DNA of 32,776 nucleotides from a virus, in IMG/VR virus record IMGVR_UViG_3300009370_000104, positions 1 through 32,776 of that record; one strand, written 5' to 3'. This document shows positions 898 through 30,215 of this stretch, one piece after another. A program made the translations under genes and the position numbers. Below the pieces are notes generated by a model. It saw only the letters and a list, made by a program, of their open reading frames with translations. It was not told the DNA's origin and did not search any database. The first letter of the stretch is position 1. Each line of letters opens with the position of its first letter.

Positions 898-1275
898 TTA
901 GTTTTTTGCTTGATAACCTGAGATTGTAACCAAACCATCAAAACCTGTTGGAGAAGCATCAGCTTTGGCATTGATAGCCTTGTTTACGGCTGATGTCTTT
1001 ATTGGGGTTGTAAGGTTGACTATGTGATTGCCTGATACTGCTGCTGTAACACCTATATAGAAGCTCATCAATACTGTTGTTGCTTCCAGTATGTCAATCT
1101 TCAATACGGCACTTGCTCCAGCCTTTACAGCAATCGTAATGTCTGTTATGTAAGTGAATCTTGAAGCATCAGCAGCTATAACAGCTGTTGAACTCGCATC
1201 TGTAAGGTTTGCCTGTCCATTGACCAACTCAACACTTGAAAGACTTGCCTGTCCTGAATTATTAACACTAGCCAT
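898..1275 (-). CDS. Putative head decoration-like protein
   Basis: 125 residues, rich in Ala, Ser, Thr and Val with alternating hydrophobic residues, suggesting an all-beta protein. There is no signal peptide or membrane segment. It lies directly after the capsid gene and a 52-residue ORF and before the connector, where many phages place a capsid decoration or head-fibre protein. The start overlaps the preceding stop as TAATG, and A-A-G-G-A-T-G-G-T just upstream can serve as ribosome site. I do not recognise the family from sequence alone; decoration is inferred from composition and location. Confidence 0.5.
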   Translation of the reverse strand: MASVNNSGQASLSSVELVNGQANLTDASSTAVIAADASRFTYITDITIAVKAGASAVLKIDILEATTVLMSFYIGVTAAVSGNHIVNLTTPIKTSAVNKAINAKADASPTGFDGLVTISGYQAKN

Positions 1276-5119: not shown

Positions 5120-7162
5120 CTAGAGCCGATTCAACCCAGTTGATTCATCAAGCAATCCTTTCCAGTCATCAAAATCTGTTTCAGCAACAAACTCAATCAG
5201 CTCATCCAGTTTCTTGCTTGTATTTGGCAACATTCTATGATACATTCTCTTGAAAGCATCAGACATTTCCTTGTCTGGCAATCCCAAAGACTGAACATAC
5301 TCTGCGAATATCTCTTTCGGTTGCTGTTCCTTTACCCCAAGAATGATGCTTCTTCTCTTTGTGTAATAAGTCTTTTTGTGTCCATAGACAACTCTCCCTT
5401 GAGCATTTCTTGTTGATGCCTGAAGCGAATCATCCAACCTCCCTACCATTTTTCCAAATTTTTCAAAACTCATATTGTTTTTCAGTTGAGATTCCCACCC
5501 AAAGATTCCATCATCTACACCTAATTTTCTGCCGATAGAATAAAGCATCTCAATACTATCATCAGCACTACCAGCTGTTGATTTGATAAAACTACTCATT
5601 ACATCTGTATTCGTAAAAAAAGTTTCATCCAGCTTGTCAAGTCGTTTTCCGATTAGTGCTTCCACATCATCCAGCTTGACAAAGCCATCTCCATCATCCA
5701 GAAGCTTCTTGATTTTTTTCCTAATCTCTTTACTTGAAACAACTTGAGCCTTAATCTTTCTATCACCGTGTTGATTTACATAAGTATCCAATCCCAAGTC
5801 ATCCCAAACATCTTTTTTAATATTAACATCACCCAAACTGTCAATATCTCCAATCTTTTTCATCTTCTTTTTTGAGTTGGTTAATTGTTTACTTAATGTT
5901 TTCCTGTCAAGCAATATGTCATCTGCTGTCGCAAAGGAAAGGTAAGGTTTTTGGTATCCCAGACCACCAGCTCTCTGAACAATAGACTTGCCAAACCCAG
6001 ATGGCAATTCTCCAGTTTCATCCAAAACCTTTTGGGCATATTTGATTGAATACTTGGGATTGTTGTCCATTGAATGGGCAAATTCGTGTCGCCAAAGGCT
6101 ATTGATGTTTTCCTTGCTGTAATTTTTGCCCATCTCAATTCTGCCCTTATTATGAAAACCCTTTGAATGGGTTTCTCTTGTAACCTTTTCTATTGGGTCT
6201 GATTTGACTACCATAGCCCTTACATTTTTCTGGTCTTTTGTCTTATCTCCCCATCCAGCCCTTTTGTGCCACTTCGCTTCTGTCTTGTTTGTGGTGTTCC
6301 AAGTTGTTCCAACTCCAGTCGGCTTGACCTGTGGAGCTTCAACAGCAACAACTTCTTCAGGCAGACCCTCTGCCAGTTCCTTGTCATCAAGCAAGGGCAA
6401 GGCTGTACACCTACAATTCACAACTTCTCCAGCTGAAGCTGCTTCATCCATAGGGAACATCATTCCATTCCCAAATGTTTCGCCTTTCTTTTTCCTTGTT
6501 CCGTTCATTTCTATATGGCTTTTCCTTGTTCCATCATCAATGATTGCCAACCATTCATATCCAATGACCAAGTCCTCTGTTTCGTAGGAATGGAATGTTC
6601 CAAGATTGGCAACCCTGTTGCTCTCTGTCCTTGCTATCCTCATTGCTTCCATTGGAGCTTTGCCCATAACATTCGTTACTGTGTCCTGAATCTTCTGGAT
6701 GTTCTCTCCATTCAGTAAGTCAATCATCATCTCATCCTTGAGCTTTGTGTAAACCTTGTCGGATGCTCCAACAATCTTGTTCATCTGGTTCTTGATTGTC
6801 TGTGCTGTCATTGGATTGGCAACATTGAAAATATCTTCAGCTTCTTTCGTTTCGTATTGGTATTTCTTCATCCTCTTTCTCAATTTCCTCAAAGCCGTGT
6901 TTCCAACTTCCTGATATTCTTCTTCAAGGAAAGGTTCAAATGTATTTTCCCATTTGTGCTGAACATCTCCAATGTCAGGCATAATGATGTCAATGGCTGC
7001 CAAAGGCATCTGCTTCTTCAGGTGTTTCTTGAAAGTCTTGTCTGCCTTTTTCAGGTTTTTCATAACCTGTCTTTTGAATGAATTGAAATTCTTGATTGAA
7101 AGCTTGTACATCTTTCTCTCAATGGTCTTTGCTGTATATGTTTTCTCTAAGGCAAACCCCAT
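5120..7162 (-). CDS. MuF-type head morphogenesis protein fused to a probable HEXXH metallopeptidase
   Basis: 680 residues, far longer than a simple MuF/SPP1 gp7 protein. The MuF domain spans about 100-260: R-I-A-R-T-E-S-N-R-V-A-N, then W-L-A-I-I-D-D-G-T-R-K-S-H, then V-N-C-R-C-T-A-L-P. MuF proteins bind the portal inside the head and can enter the host with DNA. After a proline-rich linker (270-295) comes a second region with W-R-H-E-F-A-H-S-M-D (HEFAH at 359-363) and P-K-E-I-F-A-E-Y (615-622), the spacing of zinc ligands seen in lethal-factor-like peptidases. The second domain is most likely an injected effector or head-maturation peptidase. The start is tentative: no strong Shine-Dalgarno, and M18 is an alternative. 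Confidence 0.85.
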   Translation of the reverse strand: MGFALEKTYTAKTIERKMYKLSIKNFNSFKRQVMKNLKKADKTFKKHLKKQMPLAAIDIIMPDIGDVQHKWENTFEPFLEEEYQEVGNTALRKLRKRMKKYQYETKEAEDIFNVANPMTAQTIKNQMNKIVGASDKVYTKLKDEMMIDLLNGENIQKIQDTVTNVMGKAPMEAMRIARTESNRVANLGTFHSYETEDLVIGYEWLAIIDDGTRKSHIEMNGTRKKKGETFGNGMMFPMDEAASAGEVVNCRCTALPLLDDKELAEGLPEEVVAVEAPQVKPTGVGTTWNTTNKTEAKWHKRAGWGDKTKDQKNVRAMVVKSDPIEKVTRETHSKGFHNKGRIEMGKNYSKENINSLWRHEFAHSMDNNPKYSIKYAQKVLDETGELPSGFGKSIVQRAGGLGYQKPYLSFATADDILLDRKTLSKQLTNSKKKMKKIGDIDSLGDVNIKKDVWDDLGLDTYVNQHGDRKIKAQVVSSKEIRKKIKKLLDDGDGFVKLDDVEALIGKRLDKLDETFFTNTDVMSSFIKSTAGSADDSIEMLYSIGRKLGVDDGIFGWESQLKNNMSFEKFGKMVGRLDDSLQASTRNAQGRVVYGHKKTYYTKRRSIILGVKEQQPKEIFAEYVQSLGLPDKEMSDAFKRMYHRMLPNTSKKLDELIEFVAETDFDDWKGLLDESTGLNRL

Positions 7163-7188: not shown

Positions 7189-8538
7189 CTAGCCTTTTAA
7201 ATTATCGGTATCCTTTCGGTCATCAATTTCCCAGCTCTCTATAATCTTGTCCAAGTCCTCTGAACTGATTGCCTGTAACCTCTTTTCATCTGTCGGCACT
7301 TTCCCATCCTGTCCAACCTGAACAAGGTTCATTGGCATAAAGGCAGTATCTCCCCAGCTTACTGGTGGCAATCCATCCTTTATCCTTTCCTCATTGATTG
7401 TTGATACACCAAGCTGGAGATTTGTCTTTTTTTCTTCCAGCCTGAATGTTGAATCTTTTGATGTTGGGTCATCAAACCTGAATTCCATTTCCATATTTCC
7501 GAACATTGGCATAAGCCACTTGTTGATTGTTGCCTGAATCTTCAGCAGTCTTGGCTTTACACCCTGAAGCTGGAATATCCTTTCTGCTGCTTCAACGGTT
7601 GCCTTGTTCACATCCTTTCCACCAAGAATGGCATAAGGCACTCTGTAACAAGCGAATATCTCTCTCCAGACTGCTTCCTTTCCCTGTGTGAACTCAAGTT
7701 CCTCAGCATTAAGACCAAGCCTTTGGAAATTGAATGTTCCTGAATCAAGAACAGCAACTCTCCCTCTCTTGCTTCTGCCCTGATAGAGCTGATTCCATTG
7801 ATGCCTGATTCTCTCGGCATCATTCTGTGTCAATGGTCTTTGGCTTGTAAGGATACCCTCTGGGATTGCCCTATTCTGTAAGAGCCTTAGCCTTTGAACA
7901 GACATTTCCTTGTCCACCTCTATTGAATACTGTGATGATTCAATTGGAGAATTTCCATAGAAAACTGACATTGGGTTGGCTGTCTTGAAATGTATGATTT
8001 CATCCTTTGAAAAAGCCGTTCCCTTATCCCCTATGTTGATTGAGTTCAGGTTGTCATCCAAAGAATAGATGTATCCAGCAACCAAGTCGCCCTCTTTGTT
8101 TTCTTCTTCAGCTGGAACTATTGTCATCCTGTATGAAAGCAAGGGATGAACCTCAACAGGAACACCATTTGAATCTTTCACAACATAAAGATAGGCATTT
8201 CCTGTCAAGTCCAAGTCTATGGATAGCCTTTCCATAACCTCGTAGGCATCCATAATCGGATTGGGGTCTTTGAATAGCTTGTTGAAAGGGTTGCTGGGGT
8301 CTTTAACCTGTTCCCATTTGTCGTGGCAATACTCATAAGCTCCAAAGTCTGTCATAGCAACCATATCTGCTATCCTCTTTACGGCACTAAATACTGCCGA
8401 TTGGTAGCTTTCTGACATCTCTCTTGGGGATAAATCCCTCTTGATGCCCTCGCCTTTCCTGTGTGTTCCCAATCTTAAATTCAAATAAGGGTTCTTACCC
8501 TTGCTAAAAAAGTTTTTTATGTTATCTACAACACCCAT
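7189..8538 (-). CDS. Portal protein (HK97 family)
   Basis: 449 residues. The protein shows the portal pattern: Y-Q-S-A-V-F-S-A-V-K-R-I-A-D near the start, G-N-A-Y-L-Y-V-V at about residue 113, I-H-F-K-T-A-N-P in the middle, a stem/clip helix region with R-L-R-L-L-Q-N-R, and the crown-proximal K-A-T-V-E-A-A-E-R-I-F. Twelve copies are expected at one capsid vertex, gating DNA entry and docking terminase. The start at 8538 overlaps the terminase stop by 13 bases and is preceded by GGAGAGGG. The C-terminal acidic tail (D-R-K-D-T-D-N) is typical. Confidence 0.92.
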   Translation of the reverse strand: MGVVDNIKNFFSKGKNPYLNLRLGTHRKGEGIKRDLSPREMSESYQSAVFSAVKRIADMVAMTDFGAYEYCHDKWEQVKDPSNPFNKLFKDPNPIMDAYEVMERLSIDLDLTGNAYLYVVKDSNGVPVEVHPLLSYRMTIVPAEEENKEGDLVAGYIYSLDDNLNSINIGDKGTAFSKDEIIHFKTANPMSVFYGNSPIESSQYSIEVDKEMSVQRLRLLQNRAIPEGILTSQRPLTQNDAERIRHQWNQLYQGRSKRGRVAVLDSGTFNFQRLGLNAEELEFTQGKEAVWREIFACYRVPYAILGGKDVNKATVEAAERIFQLQGVKPRLLKIQATINKWLMPMFGNMEMEFRFDDPTSKDSTFRLEEKKTNLQLGVSTINEERIKDGLPPVSWGDTAFMPMNLVQVGQDGKVPTDEKRLQAISSEDLDKIIESWEIDDRKDTDNLKG

Positions 8539-9815
8539 ATTCCCTCTCCTTTCATATATTTATTTCCCCATACAGCCAAAGCCAAGCTTATGACTGTGTC
8601 ATCATTGTATCCAGAAGCTGCCTGATACTTGGGATTGCCACTAGATGTCTTTTCATATTGGTAATTGCTCAATTCCTCAATCAAGACATTACCAATGGGG
8701 AACTTCACTTCCCCACTCTCTATCTGGAAAGCCAGATTCTGGATTATCTTTGCCTTTGTCCTGTAATCAAGGGTTATCCCAACAATCCTCAATCCAGCAA
8801 ACCTAAGCTGTTCCTCAACACTAGCTCCCATACCAGTCGCATCCAAGTATATTGGCATCTTGCCACCATACAAGTTCAAGGCATAGTTTATTCTTGACTT
8901 CTGCTGTTCAAATGTAACATCACGGCATCTGTCAATGTAAACAACCTTGTTGTCTTGGTCAATTACGGTAATGACCGTAAAGTCATTCTTCCTTGCCAAG
9001 TCTACCCCCATAGTATATGTATACTTTTCATTAAACGGTTGTGGAATATCGTATTCATCTATACATTGCTCTATGCCATAGAAAGCTCCACCACTTGAAT
9101 CAAGGAACTTCGCCAAGTATTCCTGTTCAAAGATATTTCTTGGTGTCCTCTCCCTTATTATCTGGAGCTTGTCATCCGTAATCATTGGAGATTCCGTTGA
9201 TGGTGTATGGAATGAAACCCATTCTTCCATATCCTCTTTCTGACCCCATCTCCAAGCTTCCCAGAACCAGTTCTTTCCAAGAGGTGTTGAAATCATCCAG
9301 ACTTTCGCATCCTTGACCATCAGCATTGGCTCAACATATTGCTCCCAGACCTTTCTGTGAAGCCTTGCTGCTTCATCCAGAACAACACCATCCAATGTAG
9401 CACCCAAAAGGTTGTCCAGATGCTGTGGTTCTCCAGAAAGCATTATCAATCTTGAGCCATTTGGTAGGTAAACAGTCAGGTCTGTGGCTGTAGCTTCCTC
9501 ATATCTTCCCCTAAATTGCCTTAATATTCTTGGAAATATATCCCTACGGCATTGCCGTAATGTCGGAGATACCCACCAGACTGTTGAATTGTCTTTCCTT
9601 TCAGCCAGATTAAAGGCAATATGGATGGCTAATTCGGTCTTTCCCACCTGTCTGCCAGCACATATGACAACATTCTTGCCCTCTCCCTTGTCCAAGACTT
9701 CCTGTTGCCAGTCAAAAGGCTTCCATTCTCCAGTCTTTTTCTTCTCGGCTGCCTTGATTAGTGCTGACTTTCTTCCCTCTTTCTTCTGTGTCAGCTTTGA
9801 AAAGGCTTTACTCAT
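8526..9815 (-). CDS. terL: Terminase large subunit
   Basis: 429 residues. The ATPase has Walker A C-A-G-R-Q-V-G-K-T-E (52-61), Walker B G-V-V-L-D-E-A (143-149) and the coupling motif I-S-T-P-L-G-K-N-W (175-183). The RNase H-like nuclease begins at M-G-V-D-L-A-R-K-N-D-F-T (Asp272), with I-Y-L-D-A-T-G-M-G and the late acidic G-Y-N-D-D-T. The enzyme cuts concatemers and pumps DNA through the portal. The ATG at 9815 overlaps both preceding small ORFs, one as ATGA. The domain order is complete and no key residue is missing. Confidence 0.96.
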   Translation of the reverse strand: MSKAFSKLTQKKEGRKSALIKAAEKKKTGEWKPFDWQQEVLDKGEGKNVVICAGRQVGKTELAIHIAFNLAERKDNSTVWWVSPTLRQCRRDIFPRILRQFRGRYEEATATDLTVYLPNGSRLIMLSGEPQHLDNLLGATLDGVVLDEAARLHRKVWEQYVEPMLMVKDAKVWMISTPLGKNWFWEAWRWGQKEDMEEWVSFHTPSTESPMITDDKLQIIRERTPRNIFEQEYLAKFLDSSGGAFYGIEQCIDEYDIPQPFNEKYTYTMGVDLARKNDFTVITVIDQDNKVVYIDRCRDVTFEQQKSRINYALNLYGGKMPIYLDATGMGASVEEQLRFAGLRIVGITLDYRTKAKIIQNLAFQIESGEVKFPIGNVLIEELSNYQYEKTSSGNPKYQAASGYNDDTVISLALAVWGNKYMKGEGIWVL

Positions 9816-10032
9816 CCTTGTCCAGAACCACCGATAGGGATTTCAGGGTCTTTATTTCGTAATCTATTGTCTGTGTTATGTTCTTGATTGCTGCTGAAAG
9901 CTTGTGAACATCCGTAGCCTTGATTTTCGTGTCCGAAATTTTTTTCTGAATCTCCATTTTCTCCATCTGGTTCTTTTCCATACTCAACAGGGTCTGCTGA
10001 TATAGCCGTTCTAATCTCTCGTTCTCTTTCAT
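9808..10032 (-). CDS. Small coiled-coil protein before terL; possible small terminase
   Basis: 74 residues, almost wholly helical (R-L-Y-Q-Q-T-L-L-S-M-E-K-N-Q-M-E-K-M-E-I-Q-K-K-I-S), with a second helix H-K-L-S-A-A-I-K-N-I-T-Q-T-I-D. A clear ribosome site, AAGAGGA, stands five bases before the ATG. It overlaps terL at its 3' end and is nested out of frame in the 3' half of the 10192 ORF. Position directly before terL and a helical oligomerisation-type sequence make a small terminase plausible, but no DNA-binding HTH is seen. It may be incomplete, or may be joined to the upstream frame. Confidence 0.65.
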   Translation of the reverse strand: MKENERLERLYQQTLLSMEKNQMEKMEIQKKISDTKIKATDVHKLSAAIKNITQTIDYEIKTLKSLSVVLDKDE

Positions 10033-10192
10033 CTAAATCCTCTTGTGTTATAGGTTCACTCCAAAGCACCTTGTTGTCCTTGACTTCCATCTTGTGTAGG
10101 TGGTGTTCATCAAAGGCATAGACATAGATGCCATCAGACATCCTTGCCCACTCATCAGGCAGATTACCATTTAAACTTTCCAGAAATCCCAA
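9812..10192 (-). CDS. Small protein overlapping the pre-terminase ORF (126 aa frame)
   Basis: The frame opens at a TTG (10192) preceded by GGGGA, directly at the end of the frameshift extension of the previous gene. The first 55-60 residues look like a real protein (P-D-E-W-A-R-M-S-D-G-I-Y-V-Y-A-F-D-E-H-H). The last 70 residues are Gly/Asn/Gln-rich and unlike the rest, where a convincing helical protein is encoded in the other frame. The stop overlaps the terL start as ATGA. Either this is a true out-of-frame overlap, or the functional product is shorter or frameshifted. Confidence 0.55.
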   Translation of the reverse strand: MGFLESLNGNLPDEWARMSDGIYVYAFDEHHLHKMEVKDNKVLWSEPITQEDLDEREREIRTAISADPVEYGKEPDGENGDSEKNFGHENQGYGCSQAFSSNQEHNTDNRLRNKDPEIPIGGSGQG

Positions 10193-10331
10193 TTAACTTT
10201 TCCCCATCTCGTTTCAGTATGTCAATGGAATAATTGTCATTCAGCTTTATGGAATGAACAACTCTGGCATTATCCCAGCTTGTGTCTATGTCGGAAACTA
10301 TTCCACTTAAAGTTTGTGAACTGCTTTTTTT
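10164..10331 (-). CDS. Probable -1 frameshift extension of the 10307-10624 gene
   Basis: The frame entered by slipping -1 at A-AAA-AAA (10331-10325) continues S-S-S-Q-T-L-S-G-I-V-S-D-I-D and ends K-F-K-W-stop at 10164. It has no ATG, GTG or TTG, so it cannot start on its own, yet reads like ordinary coding sequence (Y-S-I-D-I-L-K-R-D-G-E-K-L-I-G-I-S-G). It fills a 110-base gap between genes. The fused product would have about 153 residues. The same heptamer and next base are used by the tail chaperone pair at 29838-29844. Confidence 0.65.
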   Translation of the reverse strand, partial: KKSSSQTLSGIVSDIDTSWDNARVVHSIKLNDNYSIDILKRDGEKLIGISGKFKW

Positions 10332-10624
10332 GCCAGTTCCTCAATAGCTTCAGGTGTAATGATGTCCTCTTGTAAGTTGTCTATGAACTTGTGAAGCAAC
10401 TTGCTTCCAAATTCCTGATACTGTGCTACAAGCAAGTCCTCAATAACACCATCTGGAAGAATGTCCTCTATCAGGTCTTTCGCAACCTTGTCCACATCCC
10501 CATCTTCCTGTGCCTTGTCCAACCAAGCATCAACTGAAGCTTCAAGCTTCTGGGCAAATGCTGGAATGAGCTTCAACACCCATCCTCTTGCCCTATTTCG
10601 CCACCATTGACTTAATCTACTCAT
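10307..10624 (-). CDS. Helical protein of the pre-terminase region, zero-frame product (105 aa)
   Basis: 105 residues with an amphipathic N-terminus (W-W-R-N-R-A-R-G-W-V-L-K-L-I-P-A-F) and then acidic helices (K-A-Q-E-D-G-D-V-D-K-V-A-K-D-L-I-E-D-I-L-P). I do not recognise the family. A run of seven A's near the 3' end forms the slippery heptamer A-AAA-AAA followed by G, exactly in phase. The -1 frame beyond it stays open for 53 codons (see next entry), so this gene probably makes a short and a long product. It is co-directional with terL and preceded by two small membrane-protein genes. Confidence 0.7.
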   Translation of the reverse strand: MSRLSQWWRNRARGWVLKLIPAFAQKLEASVDAWLDKAQEDGDVDKVAKDLIEDILPDGVIEDLLVAQYQEFGSKLLHKFIDNLQEDIITPEAIEELAKKAVHKL

Positions 10625-10642: not shown

Positions 10643-10807
10643 TTAAGATTTGCTTGTCCTGTTTCCAAAATAGAAACCCAGAACAATCAATCCAGCATTG
10701 TTTATCGCTTCTGAATTGATTGCTGGGCATACCATAGCCAACACAAGCACCAAAGCAAGGATAGCCCTTACAGAGCCTATGGGCATATACAACGGATTTT
10801 TAGCCAT
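10643..10807 (-). CDS. Small membrane protein, holin-like (54 aa)
   Basis: 54 residues with an excellent ribosome site (GGAGGAAA, eight bases before the ATG). Two hydrophobic stretches, A-I-L-A-L-V-L-V-L-A-M-V-C-P-A (about 15-29) and A-G-L-I-V-L-G-F-Y-F-G (about 38-48), end in a basic tail (N-R-T-S-K-S). Two short membrane helices with a polar turn resemble small phage holins, but no homologue is certain. It overlaps the end of the upstream coiled-coil/membrane gene by eight bases, so both are co-translated. Confidence 0.7.
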   Translation of the reverse strand: MAKNPLYMPIGSVRAILALVLVLAMVCPAINSEAINNAGLIVLGFYFGNRTSKS

Positions 10808-11006
10808 CAATGAATTTCCTCCATATAAAAGTTACCGTGAAGCTTATTGCTGTTGTCCAGCCAAGAAGATAAACTCTCCAATCCTCAATCTTTCGCAACC
10901 TGACATCCATAGATTGGAGCATTTGTGAATCAGATTCCTGATTATCAACGATTGAATTGAGCTTTTCCTCAACCTTTGCCAAAGCAATCTCAACTTTCTT
11001 GGTCAT
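10800..11006 (-). CDS. Coiled-coil protein with C-terminal membrane anchor, XhlA-like (68 aa)
   Basis: 68 residues: a helix with heptad-like repeats (V-E-I-A-L-A-K-V-E-E-K-L-N-S-I-V, then M-D-V-R-L-R-K-I-E-D-W) followed by one membrane helix (Y-L-L-G-W-T-T-A-I-S-F-T-V-T-F-I-W) and a short basic tail. This layout matches haemolysin XhlA-type proteins, which act with holins. No Shine-Dalgarno is seen; a TAATAT box lies eleven bases upstream, so the mRNA leader must be very short. This is the first gene of the late operon on this side. A lysis role is inferred only. Confidence 0.68.
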   Translation of the reverse strand: MTKKVEIALAKVEEKLNSIVDNQESDSQMLQSMDVRLRKIEDWRVYLLGWTTAISFTVTFIWRKFIDG

Positions 11007-13248: not shown

Positions 13249-14334
13249 CTATTCTAATTCTTTTATGACTTTTTTCAATCTCAATCCAATCCATTTGGCA
13301 ACAGGTACTGTTACGGCATTTCCCATTTGCCTGTATCTTGCCGTTTCAGGAATCTTGACCTCATCCCCATTGTCATCAATCCCAAGCTTTGTCCAATCAT
13401 CAGGAAATCCGTGTAATCGTTCACATTCAATGGGTGTCAATCTTCTGACCTTGTATTCATTTGTTACAGCAGCAGCATTTGTCCTGACATCCCCGTTGTC
13501 AAAACAGGTCAATGTTGGATGTACATTTTCTGTTGTCCATCTTTCAAAGTCATCCTTGTAGGATGGTTTTTTGCTTTTTATGAATATGTCCAATATGGTT
13601 TTCTTGCCTGTTGTAAGGGTAGGGGCTACACCATCTATTCCAAAAACCCTATATGGCTCTTGAACTTTAAGCCCATCTTTATCTACTAAACATCCTTTGA
13701 TTCCCTTATCTGTTTTTCCAGAGCTTCTTTCAATAGGGGATGTAATGTCTTGCTGTGCCTTGTTGCCCTTGTCAATATCCCCTGACAAGCTCTTTTGTTC
13801 AAATAGTATCGACTTGTAGGGTTTTCCTCTAAGATGTCTATCAATCTTTGTTCCGACAATGAAGACCCTTTTTCTTCTCTGGGGAACTCCAAAGTATTGG
13901 CTGTCCAATACTCTCCATTCACAACTATACCCCCTGTCAGCCAACGACTTGACCACAATTCCCATATCTTCCCCATTCCTTGCTGATAGTAATCCTTTGA
14001 CATTCTCAGCCAAGACATAGGTGGGTGCTCTATATTCAACACACCGAATAAACTCGTGCCATAATGAACTTCTTTTTCCTTCAAAACCTTTTCTCCTTGT
14101 ATTTCCTAATGATAAATCCTGACAAGGAAAACCACCGACATACAAGTCAGCTTCTGGCAAATCCTTTGGATTTATCTTTGACACATCCCCAAATCTCTTG
14201 ACTTGAGGATACTGGTATCTCAACACTTTCTGGCAGTTCTTGTCAATCTCAACTTGGGCTAAACAATCATATCCAGCCTGTTCCAACCCTAAGTCAAGAC
14301 CACCAACCCCAGCAAAAAAACTAACGAACTTCAT
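13249..14334 (-). CDS. DNA cytosine-5 methyltransferase
   Basis: 361 residues with the full C5 motif series: I F-F-A-G-V-G-G-L-D-L-G (6-16), IV G-G-F-P-C-Q-D-L-S with catalytic Cys71, VI A-E-N-V (109-112), VIII Q-R-R-K-R-V-F (152-158), and late motifs R-L-T-P-I-E-C-E-R-L-H-G-F-P and M-G-N-A-V-T-V-P-V. The target-recognition region lies at about 170-290. It methylates cytosine in a short site, probably shielding phage DNA from restriction. It is the last gene of the early operon; the ATG overlaps the HTH gene stop (ATGA). No cognate restriction enzyme is nearby, so it is an orphan enzyme. Confidence 0.95.
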   Translation of the reverse strand: MKFVSFFAGVGGLDLGLEQAGYDCLAQVEIDKNCQKVLRYQYPQVKRFGDVSKINPKDLPEADLYVGGFPCQDLSLGNTRRKGFEGKRSSLWHEFIRCVEYRAPTYVLAENVKGLLSARNGEDMGIVVKSLADRGYSCEWRVLDSQYFGVPQRRKRVFIVGTKIDRHLRGKPYKSILFEQKSLSGDIDKGNKAQQDITSPIERSSGKTDKGIKGCLVDKDGLKVQEPYRVFGIDGVAPTLTTGKKTILDIFIKSKKPSYKDDFERWTTENVHPTLTCFDNGDVRTNAAAVTNEYKVRRLTPIECERLHGFPDDWTKLGIDDNGDEVKIPETARYRQMGNAVTVPVAKWIGLRLKKVIKELE

Positions 14335-27731: not shown

Positions 27732-29497
27732 TAGATTCTCGCTTCCCTACCAAAGTTTGAACTCATCATAATATTACCACCTGTTGTTATCATTGGAGAT
27801 ACATTTCTTCTTGCTCCAGCTTTCAGAAGCTGTCCTGTCATATCTCCCCAATTCACTACCTTTACTGGAATCGGCTTGTCAATCTTTGCTGGTTTTTTCT
27901 TCCTGAATATTCTTCCAATAAGACCACTTACCAATCCACCCATAATCCCAGCTCCGATTCCACCTATTGAATCTTTCAGCTGGTCTGTAACCTCTGCTCC
28001 AAGTATGTTTCCTATACCAGCACCAATCACTTCCATTGTTGAAGCTCCATCCCCATCAAGCATAAGCTGTGCCAAAGAATCTCCAAAGGATTGTGAAAAC
28101 ATCAAGGCTGCCTGTTGTCCAGCTGATTCTGTTGATTCAGATAATGTTTGAACAAAACCACTTGTCTTTGCTGATGTTCCGTATGTTCCCTCTCCATAAA
28201 ATTCTTCCATCTTCTGTTTCCAAGTTTTTCCATCCCCCCCAGCACCAACAAAAGGAACTGTTGGAACAGTTCTTGGTAGTGTAGGTGTTTCAACATCTGT
28301 TGTTAACCTTTCACCTGATTCTCTTATGAGTTTAGCCAAGTCTGGGTACATCTTTTCCCAATCTCCACCCAGAACCTCATCAAGCTTCGTTTTTAAAGCA
28401 TTCAATGGAATTAAAGCCTTATGAGCTCCAATGGAAAGGTTGCCAAAAAACACCCTGACATCATCTCCACCATCCCTTAACGATTCAGCTGTATCCTCAA
28501 ACCATTTTTTCAATTCTGGATTAAAATGGGTACCCCTAGCCAAAGCATCAAAAAGCCTTGCCAATGAATCAAGAATTTTTTCCAATCCAATACCAATGTC
28601 ATTGATAAATCCAGCAAAAGCAATACCCCATTCAAACAATTTTCCAAGAGCATTGCTTATGCTTTGTGCTGTTCGTTCAAACCAATCTTCAACATCCTCT
28701 TGATTCAGCTCGTTGGCACTTTCTGTGAAAGACACTACAAGGGATGTCATTCCCTCTAACATCCTTATCAGGAATGGAGATTCGGCAATCATATCCCCAA
28801 AAGCCCTTTTCAAATCAGAAATGGCTGATTTGAGCTTGTTTACATTTCCTGTGAATGTCGTACCAAGAGCATCTGACAATCCACCAACCTGTTCTTCAAT
28901 CTCTGAAAGTATCAGCTCAAAGTCTTTTGTTTCCTTTGCTGTATCAGAAAGGGTAATACCCATCCTTGACAATTCTCCAGTAAGACCCATAGAAGCCTTA
29001 CCCATAGCATTGGCAGCTGGAACAACACCTTGACCAGTCTTGGCTGCGAAATCAACCATAACCTTTGTAACTCTTGGCATCAAGTGGTCGCCTATGTCTT
29101 TGTATGTTGCCAAGAAACCTTGACCCTCAATGATTGCTGTATTGGAAACACCTGTAACCTCTTGGATTGAATCAGCCAAGTCCGTAAGCTCTTTTGAAAG
29201 GTTTGGGGTTACCCTACCCATACTCTTGATTGAAGCATTTAGGGCTACTGTGGCATCCTGAAATTCAGTTGATGATTGAACAAGGCTGTCAAGACCTCTC
29301 TTTAAAGCTCCACCAACAAGGATAAGACCTACTCCAACCAAAGCTCCCTTTAGTCCGAATACGGCACTTTTGACTGTTCCAAAGACTGACCCAACCTTTG
29401 TTCCAAAAGTCTTTACTTTGGTTGAAACCTTTGTAAGTGTTGGGGATATTGAATCTCGTAGCTTTGCTACTACTTCTATTGCTCTGCCTATTGCCAT
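27731..29497 (-). CDS. Tail tape-measure protein (588 aa)
   Basis: 588 residues. The N-terminus is helical (A-K-L-R-D-S-I-S-P-T-L-T-K-V), followed by a hydrophobic stretch V-G-V-G-L-I-L-V-G-G-A-L (about 54-65). A region G-M-G-K/M-G-L-T-G-E-L-S-R-M-G-I near residue 165 is typical of tape-measure proteins. The C-terminus has a glycine-rich hydrophobic segment (I-G-A-G-I-M-G-G-L-V-S-G-L-I-G) suited to membrane insertion. It sets tail length and helps DNA entry; at the usual rule of about 1.5 angstrom per residue the tail would be near 90 nm. Confidence 0.88.
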   Translation of the reverse strand: MAIGRAIEVVAKLRDSISPTLTKVSTKVKTFGTKVGSVFGTVKSAVFGLKGALVGVGLILVGGALKRGLDSLVQSSTEFQDATVALNASIKSMGRVTPNLSKELTDLADSIQEVTGVSNTAIIEGQGFLATYKDIGDHLMPRVTKVMVDFAAKTGQGVVPAANAMGKASMGLTGELSRMGITLSDTAKETKDFELILSEIEEQVGGLSDALGTTFTGNVNKLKSAISDLKRAFGDMIAESPFLIRMLEGMTSLVVSFTESANELNQEDVEDWFERTAQSISNALGKLFEWGIAFAGFINDIGIGLEKILDSLARLFDALARGTHFNPELKKWFEDTAESLRDGGDDVRVFFGNLSIGAHKALIPLNALKTKLDEVLGGDWEKMYPDLAKLIRESGERLTTDVETPTLPRTVPTVPFVGAGGDGKTWKQKMEEFYGEGTYGTSAKTSGFVQTLSESTESAGQQAALMFSQSFGDSLAQLMLDGDGASTMEVIGAGIGNILGAEVTDQLKDSIGGIGAGIMGGLVSGLIGRIFRKKKPAKIDKPIPVKVVNWGDMTGQLLKAGARRNVSPMITTGGNIMMSSNFGREARI

Positions 29498-29880
29498 TAT
29501 TTGTTTTTCCTTTTCATCTGCTCAAGTTTGTCGTTCTCTTTTTCCCTTTGAACCGAACCAATAAATTCCATATACTCTATGAATCTTGAGGATTGGTCTA
29601 AAAAAGAGCCTGTGTCTGGCAAGAACCCCTTTTGGTAAGCTCCGTAAAGAGCAAAAGCTTGTCCTATTTCTTCATTGTAGAAAGTAAGAGGGCATTCCCA
29701 TACCCTCTCTCTCCCATACAAATATGGAGCTGATGCTCTCTTGCCTTTGATACAACCTCTGCCCTCGCAAAGGTTGAGTTCTCTACAAGATTCGCAATCA
29801 AACCCCAGTTCTTGCCCATACAGAACAAGCTCTAGGCTTTTTTTTGGTCTTTGCCCACCTTTGACATACTGGTAACCCAT
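29497..29880 (-). CDS. Tail assembly chaperone, frameshifted T-like part
   Basis: This frame lies -1 to the upstream chaperone gene and overlaps its end. The true product is the fusion made at A-AAA-AAA (29844-29838), giving about 239 residues; the ATG at 29880 in this frame is unlikely to be used. After the slip it reads S-L-E-L-V-L-Y-G-Q-E-L-G-F and carries four cysteines in C-E-S-C ... C-E-G-R-G-C, unusual for this protein and possibly metal-binding. In lambda the equivalent GT protein links tape measure and tail tube during assembly. Confidence 0.85.
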   Translation of the reverse strand: MGYQYVKGGQRPKKSLELVLYGQELGFDCESCRELNLCEGRGCIKGKRASAPYLYGRERVWECPLTFYNEEIGQAFALYGAYQKGFLPDTGSFLDQSSRFIEYMEFIGSVQREKENDKLEQMKRKNK

Positions 29881-30215
29881 TCAGCAATCTCTGTGATTAG
29901 GTCTAATGGCAAGGCATCCAGATAGTCATCTGTTACTGCCTGACATTTCCATCCCAGTTTCTTGTCATCTGTAAGCTTGAAACCAATTCCCAAATCTCCC
30001 TCTACATTCTTCAATCCATACCTTACGAATTGGATGGCACAATCAGCCATTGAATTGACATCAGTCAAGTCGTTTCCGTACTTTGCCATTATCTTGAACA
30101 TCTGCCTTGATGTCAAAGAGCCAACAAAGAACTTTGTCTTGTCCTTGCCTTTCTCCAATTTGCTAGTATGTTCGCTTCTCGCTGTTAAATCTAACAGCTT
30201 TAGTCCTTTACCCAT
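29832..30215 (-). CDS. Tail assembly chaperone, G-like
   Basis: 127 residues, helical, ending K-D-Q-K-K-A-stop at 29832 right after an eight-A run. The layout (short helical gene between tail tube and tape measure, slippery heptamer near its end, an open -1 frame) is the lambda G/T arrangement. It should coat the tape measure during assembly and is absent from the virion. Ribosome site AAGGGAG precedes the ATG. The frameshift efficiency sets the ratio of short to long product. Confidence 0.87.
   Translation of the reverse strand: MGKGLKLLDLTARSEHTSKLEKGKDKTKFFVGSLTSRQMFKIMAKYGNDLTDVNSMADCAIQFVRYGLKNVEGDLGIGFKLTDDKKLGWKCQAVTDDYLDALPLDLITEIAEWVTSMSKVGKDQKKA

Follow-up and report, generated by a model that had tools for sequence, protein, structure and literature searches.

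A gene in the late operon of an uncultured tailed phage, upstream of the terminase large-subunit gene (terL), is very probably expressed by conserved -1 programmed ribosomal frameshifting. The stretch of phage DNA analysed, 32,776 nucleotides of IMG/VR record IMGVR_UViG_3300009370_000104, is referred to here as the window, and its relevant features are collected in Table 1. We infer that slippage occurs in the following way: most ribosomes would terminate a few codons past the slippery heptamer, at the 0-frame stop, yielding a helical protein of 105 aa, and a minority would shift back by one base on A AAA AAA (G GGA AAA in some relatives) and so add a C-terminal beta-strand module of 53 aa (25 aa in the other branch of these phages) that ends in W-stop. 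By analogy with the lambda G/GT system, the short form would predominate and a fixed minority of the product would carry an extra binding module. The frameshift mechanism is already known; the gene is new.

Table 1. Coordinates of the frameshift gene, its signals and neighbouring features in the window
Feature	Coordinates	Strand	Evidence or remark
0-frame gene, 105 aa (MSRLSQWW...AKKAVHKL*)	10307..10624	-	translation; homologues in 4 other phages
Slippery heptamer A AAA AAA, then G	10325..10331	-	sole X XXY YYZ in 11 shiftable codons
0-frame stop TAA (TAG in nearest relative)	10307..10309	-	sequence
-1 frame extension, 53 codons + stop, without start codon	10164..10325	-	translation, dN/dS, predicted structure
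GAGGAA, possible Shine-Dalgarno-like stimulator (weak)	10337..10342	-	5 nt upstream of heptamer
68-aa protein, C-terminal hydrophobic segment, weakly XhlA-like	10800..11006	-	conserved in 5/5 phages
54-aa small membrane protein	10643..10807	-	conserved in 5/5 phages
Downstream ORF, likely TTG start at 10192 inside extension	9812..10192	-	separate gene
74-aa ORF, probably helical, overlaps preceding ORF	9808..10032	-	conserved in 5/5 phages
Terminase large subunit	8526..9815	-	phrog_2, 3.4e-47
Portal protein	7189..8538	-	phrog_2662, 4.8e-65
Tail-assembly-chaperone-like ORF, A AAA AAA at 29838..29844	29832..30215	-	-1 frame reads on

The initial annotation described a 105-codon gene with an in-phase A-AAA-AAA-G near its end and a -1 frame that stays open for 53 codons without a start codon of its own; the coordinates were confirmed on the minus strand, and the reading was supported. 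The gene ends GCA AAA AAA GCA GTT CAC AAA CTT TAA (heptamer context GC[A AAA AAA]GCA, 10331..10325), placing the heptamer five codons before the stop, and a one-base back-shift at this point gives a 153-aa fusion that ends at 10164. The extension reads SSSQTLSGIVSDIDTSWDNARVVHSIKLNDNYSIDILKRDGEKLIGISGKFKW and is terminated by TAA at 10166..10164. Measured from stop to stop, the -1 ORF comprises 58 codons, among which ATG, GTG and TTG are all absent and some ATA, ATT, ATC and CTG codons are present; lacking a start codon, the extension would be missed by ordinary gene callers. The locus has two features that characterize -1 frameshift genes, namely an in-phase heptamer within the frame overlap and an extension that is conserved as protein and has no start of its own. 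The surrounding gap, described as otherwise empty, is not wholly so, since the likely TTG start of ORF 10192..9812 falls inside the extension, 26 nt before its stop.

Set against the window's own background, this layout is unusual but not extreme. Inside genes of this phage the -1 frame has a stop density of 8.0% per codon, from which 53 open codons would be expected by chance with p ~0.012; the corresponding value for a strong in-phase heptamer within 11 shiftable codons is p ~0.022. Because AAAAAAAG is common in the window (17 occurrences on both strands, vs 6.4 expected from dinucleotide shuffles), relatives were needed as evidence. Conservation in the four relatives found is far stronger evidence than either chance estimate.

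To find relatives, IMG/VR was scanned twice, once with the 105-aa protein as query and once with the extension; the two scans matched adjoining places on the same contig, L002. This nearest relative is an independent contig whose proteins are 86-93% identical to those of the window; its heptamer is identical, as is the DNA from there to the 0-frame stop, except for TAG in place of TAA. Alignment of terL added three more distant phages, L005, L009 and L012 (terL ~63% identical), in which the orthologous gene encodes 109 aa, is ~40% identical and carries G GGA AAA near codon 104. The five phages thus form two branches, one with A AAA AAA (the window and L002) and one with G GGA AAA (L005, L009 and L012), and the two-frame layout is retained in all four relatives, including those in which the heptamer differs. 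In L005, for instance, the gene ends ...GTG GGA AAA GCC CTA GAC TAA, and the -1 frame continues as SPRLKLIYRQERDEDIVGIEFDWRW-stop, the end of which resembles the DILKRDGEKLIGISGKFKW-stop of the window. The extension is 53 aa long in the window and 25 aa in the G GGA AAA branch, with a W-stop ending. The two versions could be aligned over a short length only, by a comparison that started from known sequences, and their homology is therefore likely rather than proven. In all five phages the frames can be joined by a -1 shift only within 8-11 codons. This interval holds a single X XXY YYZ heptamer, which is preceded by just a few codons of open -1 frame, and no ATG, GTG or TTG is able to start the whole extension.

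Among 80 portal-related contigs searched, the gene was present in the five phages only. In 63 of the 80 contigs the region before the portal gene was scanned for similar slippery overlaps; of the 15 matches, none was judged convincing. No prophage relative with the gene or the portal was found in the species-genome collection, and among cultured phages there was no match at the DNA level, while protein matches did not go below E 0.8. The phages that carry the gene are uncultured tailed phages and form a small group.

Purifying selection acts on the amino acids of the extension. Between the window and L002, the extension has a dN of 0.067 and a dS of 0.855 (dN/dS 0.08), and 17 of its 25 substitutions are third-position changes in the -1 frame (binomial p 4e-4); each of the two remaining frames is interrupted by 3-7 stops across the same interval. 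As the 0-frame part gave a dN of 0.062 and a dS of 0.41 in this comparison, the constraint on the extension as protein is no weaker than that on the gene itself. The extensions of L005 and L009 differ by 7 synonymous and 0 non-synonymous changes in the 22 codons compared.

The 105-aa short form is predicted to be all-helical with a cationic N-terminus, at low confidence (pLDDT 46). A model of the extension alone, of fair confidence (pLDDT 74), shows a helix and three beta strands forming a beta meander, for which there was no fold match with E below 0.1 and no Ig-like match. Since neither Pfam nor PHROG gave a meaningful family match for the gene, we infer its function from context. By analogy with lambda G/GT and from its position, we propose that the product is a multimeric late protein, a minority of whose subunits carry a binding module. 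The gene order shared by these phages is XhlA-like protein, small membrane protein, frameshift gene, small ORF, 74-79-aa ORF, terL and portal, and from this position a role in head or packaging assembly has roughly an even chance of being correct. A more specific and more tentative reading is that of a head-side counterpart of lambda G/GT, a portal or terminase assembly factor in which the ratio of bare to beta-module subunits would be set by slippage; if true, phage frameshift genes would gain a new class, on the side of head formation and packaging.

The same neighbourhood admits another function, in which the frameshifting is real and the long and short forms serve lysis control as a pair of the holin/antiholin type. 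The gene follows the XhlA-like and small membrane proteins at the start of the late operon, and its N-terminal segment is cationic; however, the gene itself has no transmembrane segment (maximum Kyte-Doolittle mean 0.77 over 19 residues), the XhlA similarity is weak, and no endolysin was identified near the gene. We regard lysis control as doubtful, and lean towards head or packaging assembly on the strength of operon position and the analogy with lambda G/GT.

In all five phages the next ORF is likely to start inside the extension or at its end (-26, -26, -4, -14 and -26 nt relative to the extension stop, with an ATGGTGA overlap in L005), and its translation might thus be affected. The shift might then serve mainly to deliver ribosomes to that start, with the extension peptide secondary. 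Such translational coupling would not by itself require the strong purifying selection seen on the extension (dN/dS 0.08), and as the main role it is unlikely; a coupling role and a role for the extension as protein can coexist. A second frameshift, from the extension into ORF 9812..10192, was considered and rejected: the frame of this ORF relative to the extension differs in L005, indicating a separate gene. ORFs 9812..10192 and 9808..10032 overlap by ~220 nt in different frames, and substitutions against L002 favour the 74-aa frame, with 8 of 11 in its third position, so the end of the longer ORF may be coding only incidentally. The 74-aa ORF is possibly the small terminase, given its position. 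An ORF of 77-79 aa likewise precedes terL in L005, L009 and L012; in L005 it is followed, before terL, by an additional ORF that looks like a cytosine methylase (L005:1416-2375). The window has its own cytosine DNA methylase elsewhere (13249..14334).

The remaining alternatives dispense with ribosomal frameshifting altogether, and the presence of exactly one heptamer in the 8-11 shiftable codons of all five phages makes each of them unlikely. That the extension is a separate small gene, translated from a non-standard start or by coupled re-initiation, would accord with the many overlapping genes of this operon and with the ATA, ATT, ATC and CTG codons of the -1 ORF; it is nevertheless very improbable, as none of the five phages has an ATG, GTG or TTG before the conserved part, and the -1 ORF opens just before a canonical heptamer everywhere. 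Nor did any of the four relatives carry the extension as a gene with its own start, an arrangement that would have contradicted the initial proposal. Runs of A can slip during transcription, a possibility named for AAAAAAA (PMC4066793), and a fusion mRNA might be produced from the A7 run in this manner; such an origin is equally improbable, given that the extension is kept in the other branch too, where the site reads GGGAAAAG and includes no more than four A. Homopolymer runs are error-prone, but a sequencing or assembly error in A7 that hides one continuous frame is scarcely credible, since the independent contig L002 has the same A7 followed by its own stop (TAG vs TAA in the window) and the three phages without a long A-run keep both the two-frame layout and the stop.

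Programmed frameshifting thus remains the preferred explanation, and we looked for signals that might stimulate it. Stimulatory structures or internal Shine-Dalgarno elements are common in -1 frameshift genes but not obligatory. In four of the five phages the SD-like GAGGAA precedes the heptamer by 5 nt, and in L005 it is absent; its spacing is shorter than the 9-14 nt reported for internal SD elements in -1 shifts (PMC5009743). RNA structure downstream of the heptamer was weak, with z-scores of -0.1 to -1.8 against shuffles; a weak hairpin found there in the G GGA AAA branch was no better than shuffles and had no compensatory changes. Rfam returned only one sub-threshold miRNA match, which we took as chance.

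The lambda G/GT tail assembly chaperone is made by a -1 frameshift on GGGAAAG. Like G/GT, the gene described here belongs to a late operon, carries a canonical heptamer near its end, has a short and a C-terminally extended predicted product, and has a heptamer that varies between relatives. Unlike G/GT, it precedes terL rather than lying just upstream of the tape measure gene, and it has no detectable sequence relation to the chaperones, with no significant PHROG or Pfam match. Moreover, this phage has a likely frameshift chaperone of its own at 30215..29497, whose -1 frame continues for 113 aa to ~29497, just before the tape measure gene. The chaperone heptamer also varies among relatives (29497..30215; L095, L096 and L097), being A AAA AAA in three phages (the window, L002 and L009) and C CCA AAA in the phage of L012. 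Given this variation, and the combination in L009 of A AAA AAA in the chaperone with G GGA AAA in the terL-upstream gene, the two sites evolve separately. The initial annotation had noted that this gene and the tail chaperone share a heptamer, which is correct for the window phage and L002 but does not extend to L009 and L012.

Comparison with other systems gave partial likenesses. As in the capsid extensions of T3/T7 gene 10 and Lactobacillus phage A2, the extended product would be a minor form with a C-terminal, beta-rich extension; unlike them, this is a non-capsid gene with an extension of 25-53 aa and no Ig-like match. The heptamer class and the possible internal SD-like element recall the A AAA AAG and A AAA AAA signals of dnaX and IS elements, from which the present site differs in its short SD-like spacing and in that no strong structure was detected downstream. 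The main phage frameshift cases are tail chaperones and capsid genes (PMC5009743, a review), and other candidates include Cro and lysins (PMC10885494, a survey); no case before terL was found in the open literature, seen mostly as titles and abstracts. The locus described here would be a well-supported frameshift case outside the usual location, in a gene undescribed by the family libraries searched, where two different heptamers are maintained at one site. As a compact system, it would allow one to ask why phages set product ratios by slippage outside tail assembly.

Two other features of the window were recorded. The Mu F-like head protein (5120..7162, minus strand; Pfam Phage_Mu_F) is 680 aa long, with an unusually long C-terminal part that contains a HEFAH (HExxH) motif and may constitute a fused metallopeptidase-like or MuF-effector-like domain; the ORFs at this position in L008 and L009 are only ~255-270 aa. 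ORF 898..1275 (minus strand) has an in-phase A AAA AAC near its end, followed by a -1 frame that is open for 223 codons and covers the next gene, an overlap that probably reflects ordinary gene adjacency.
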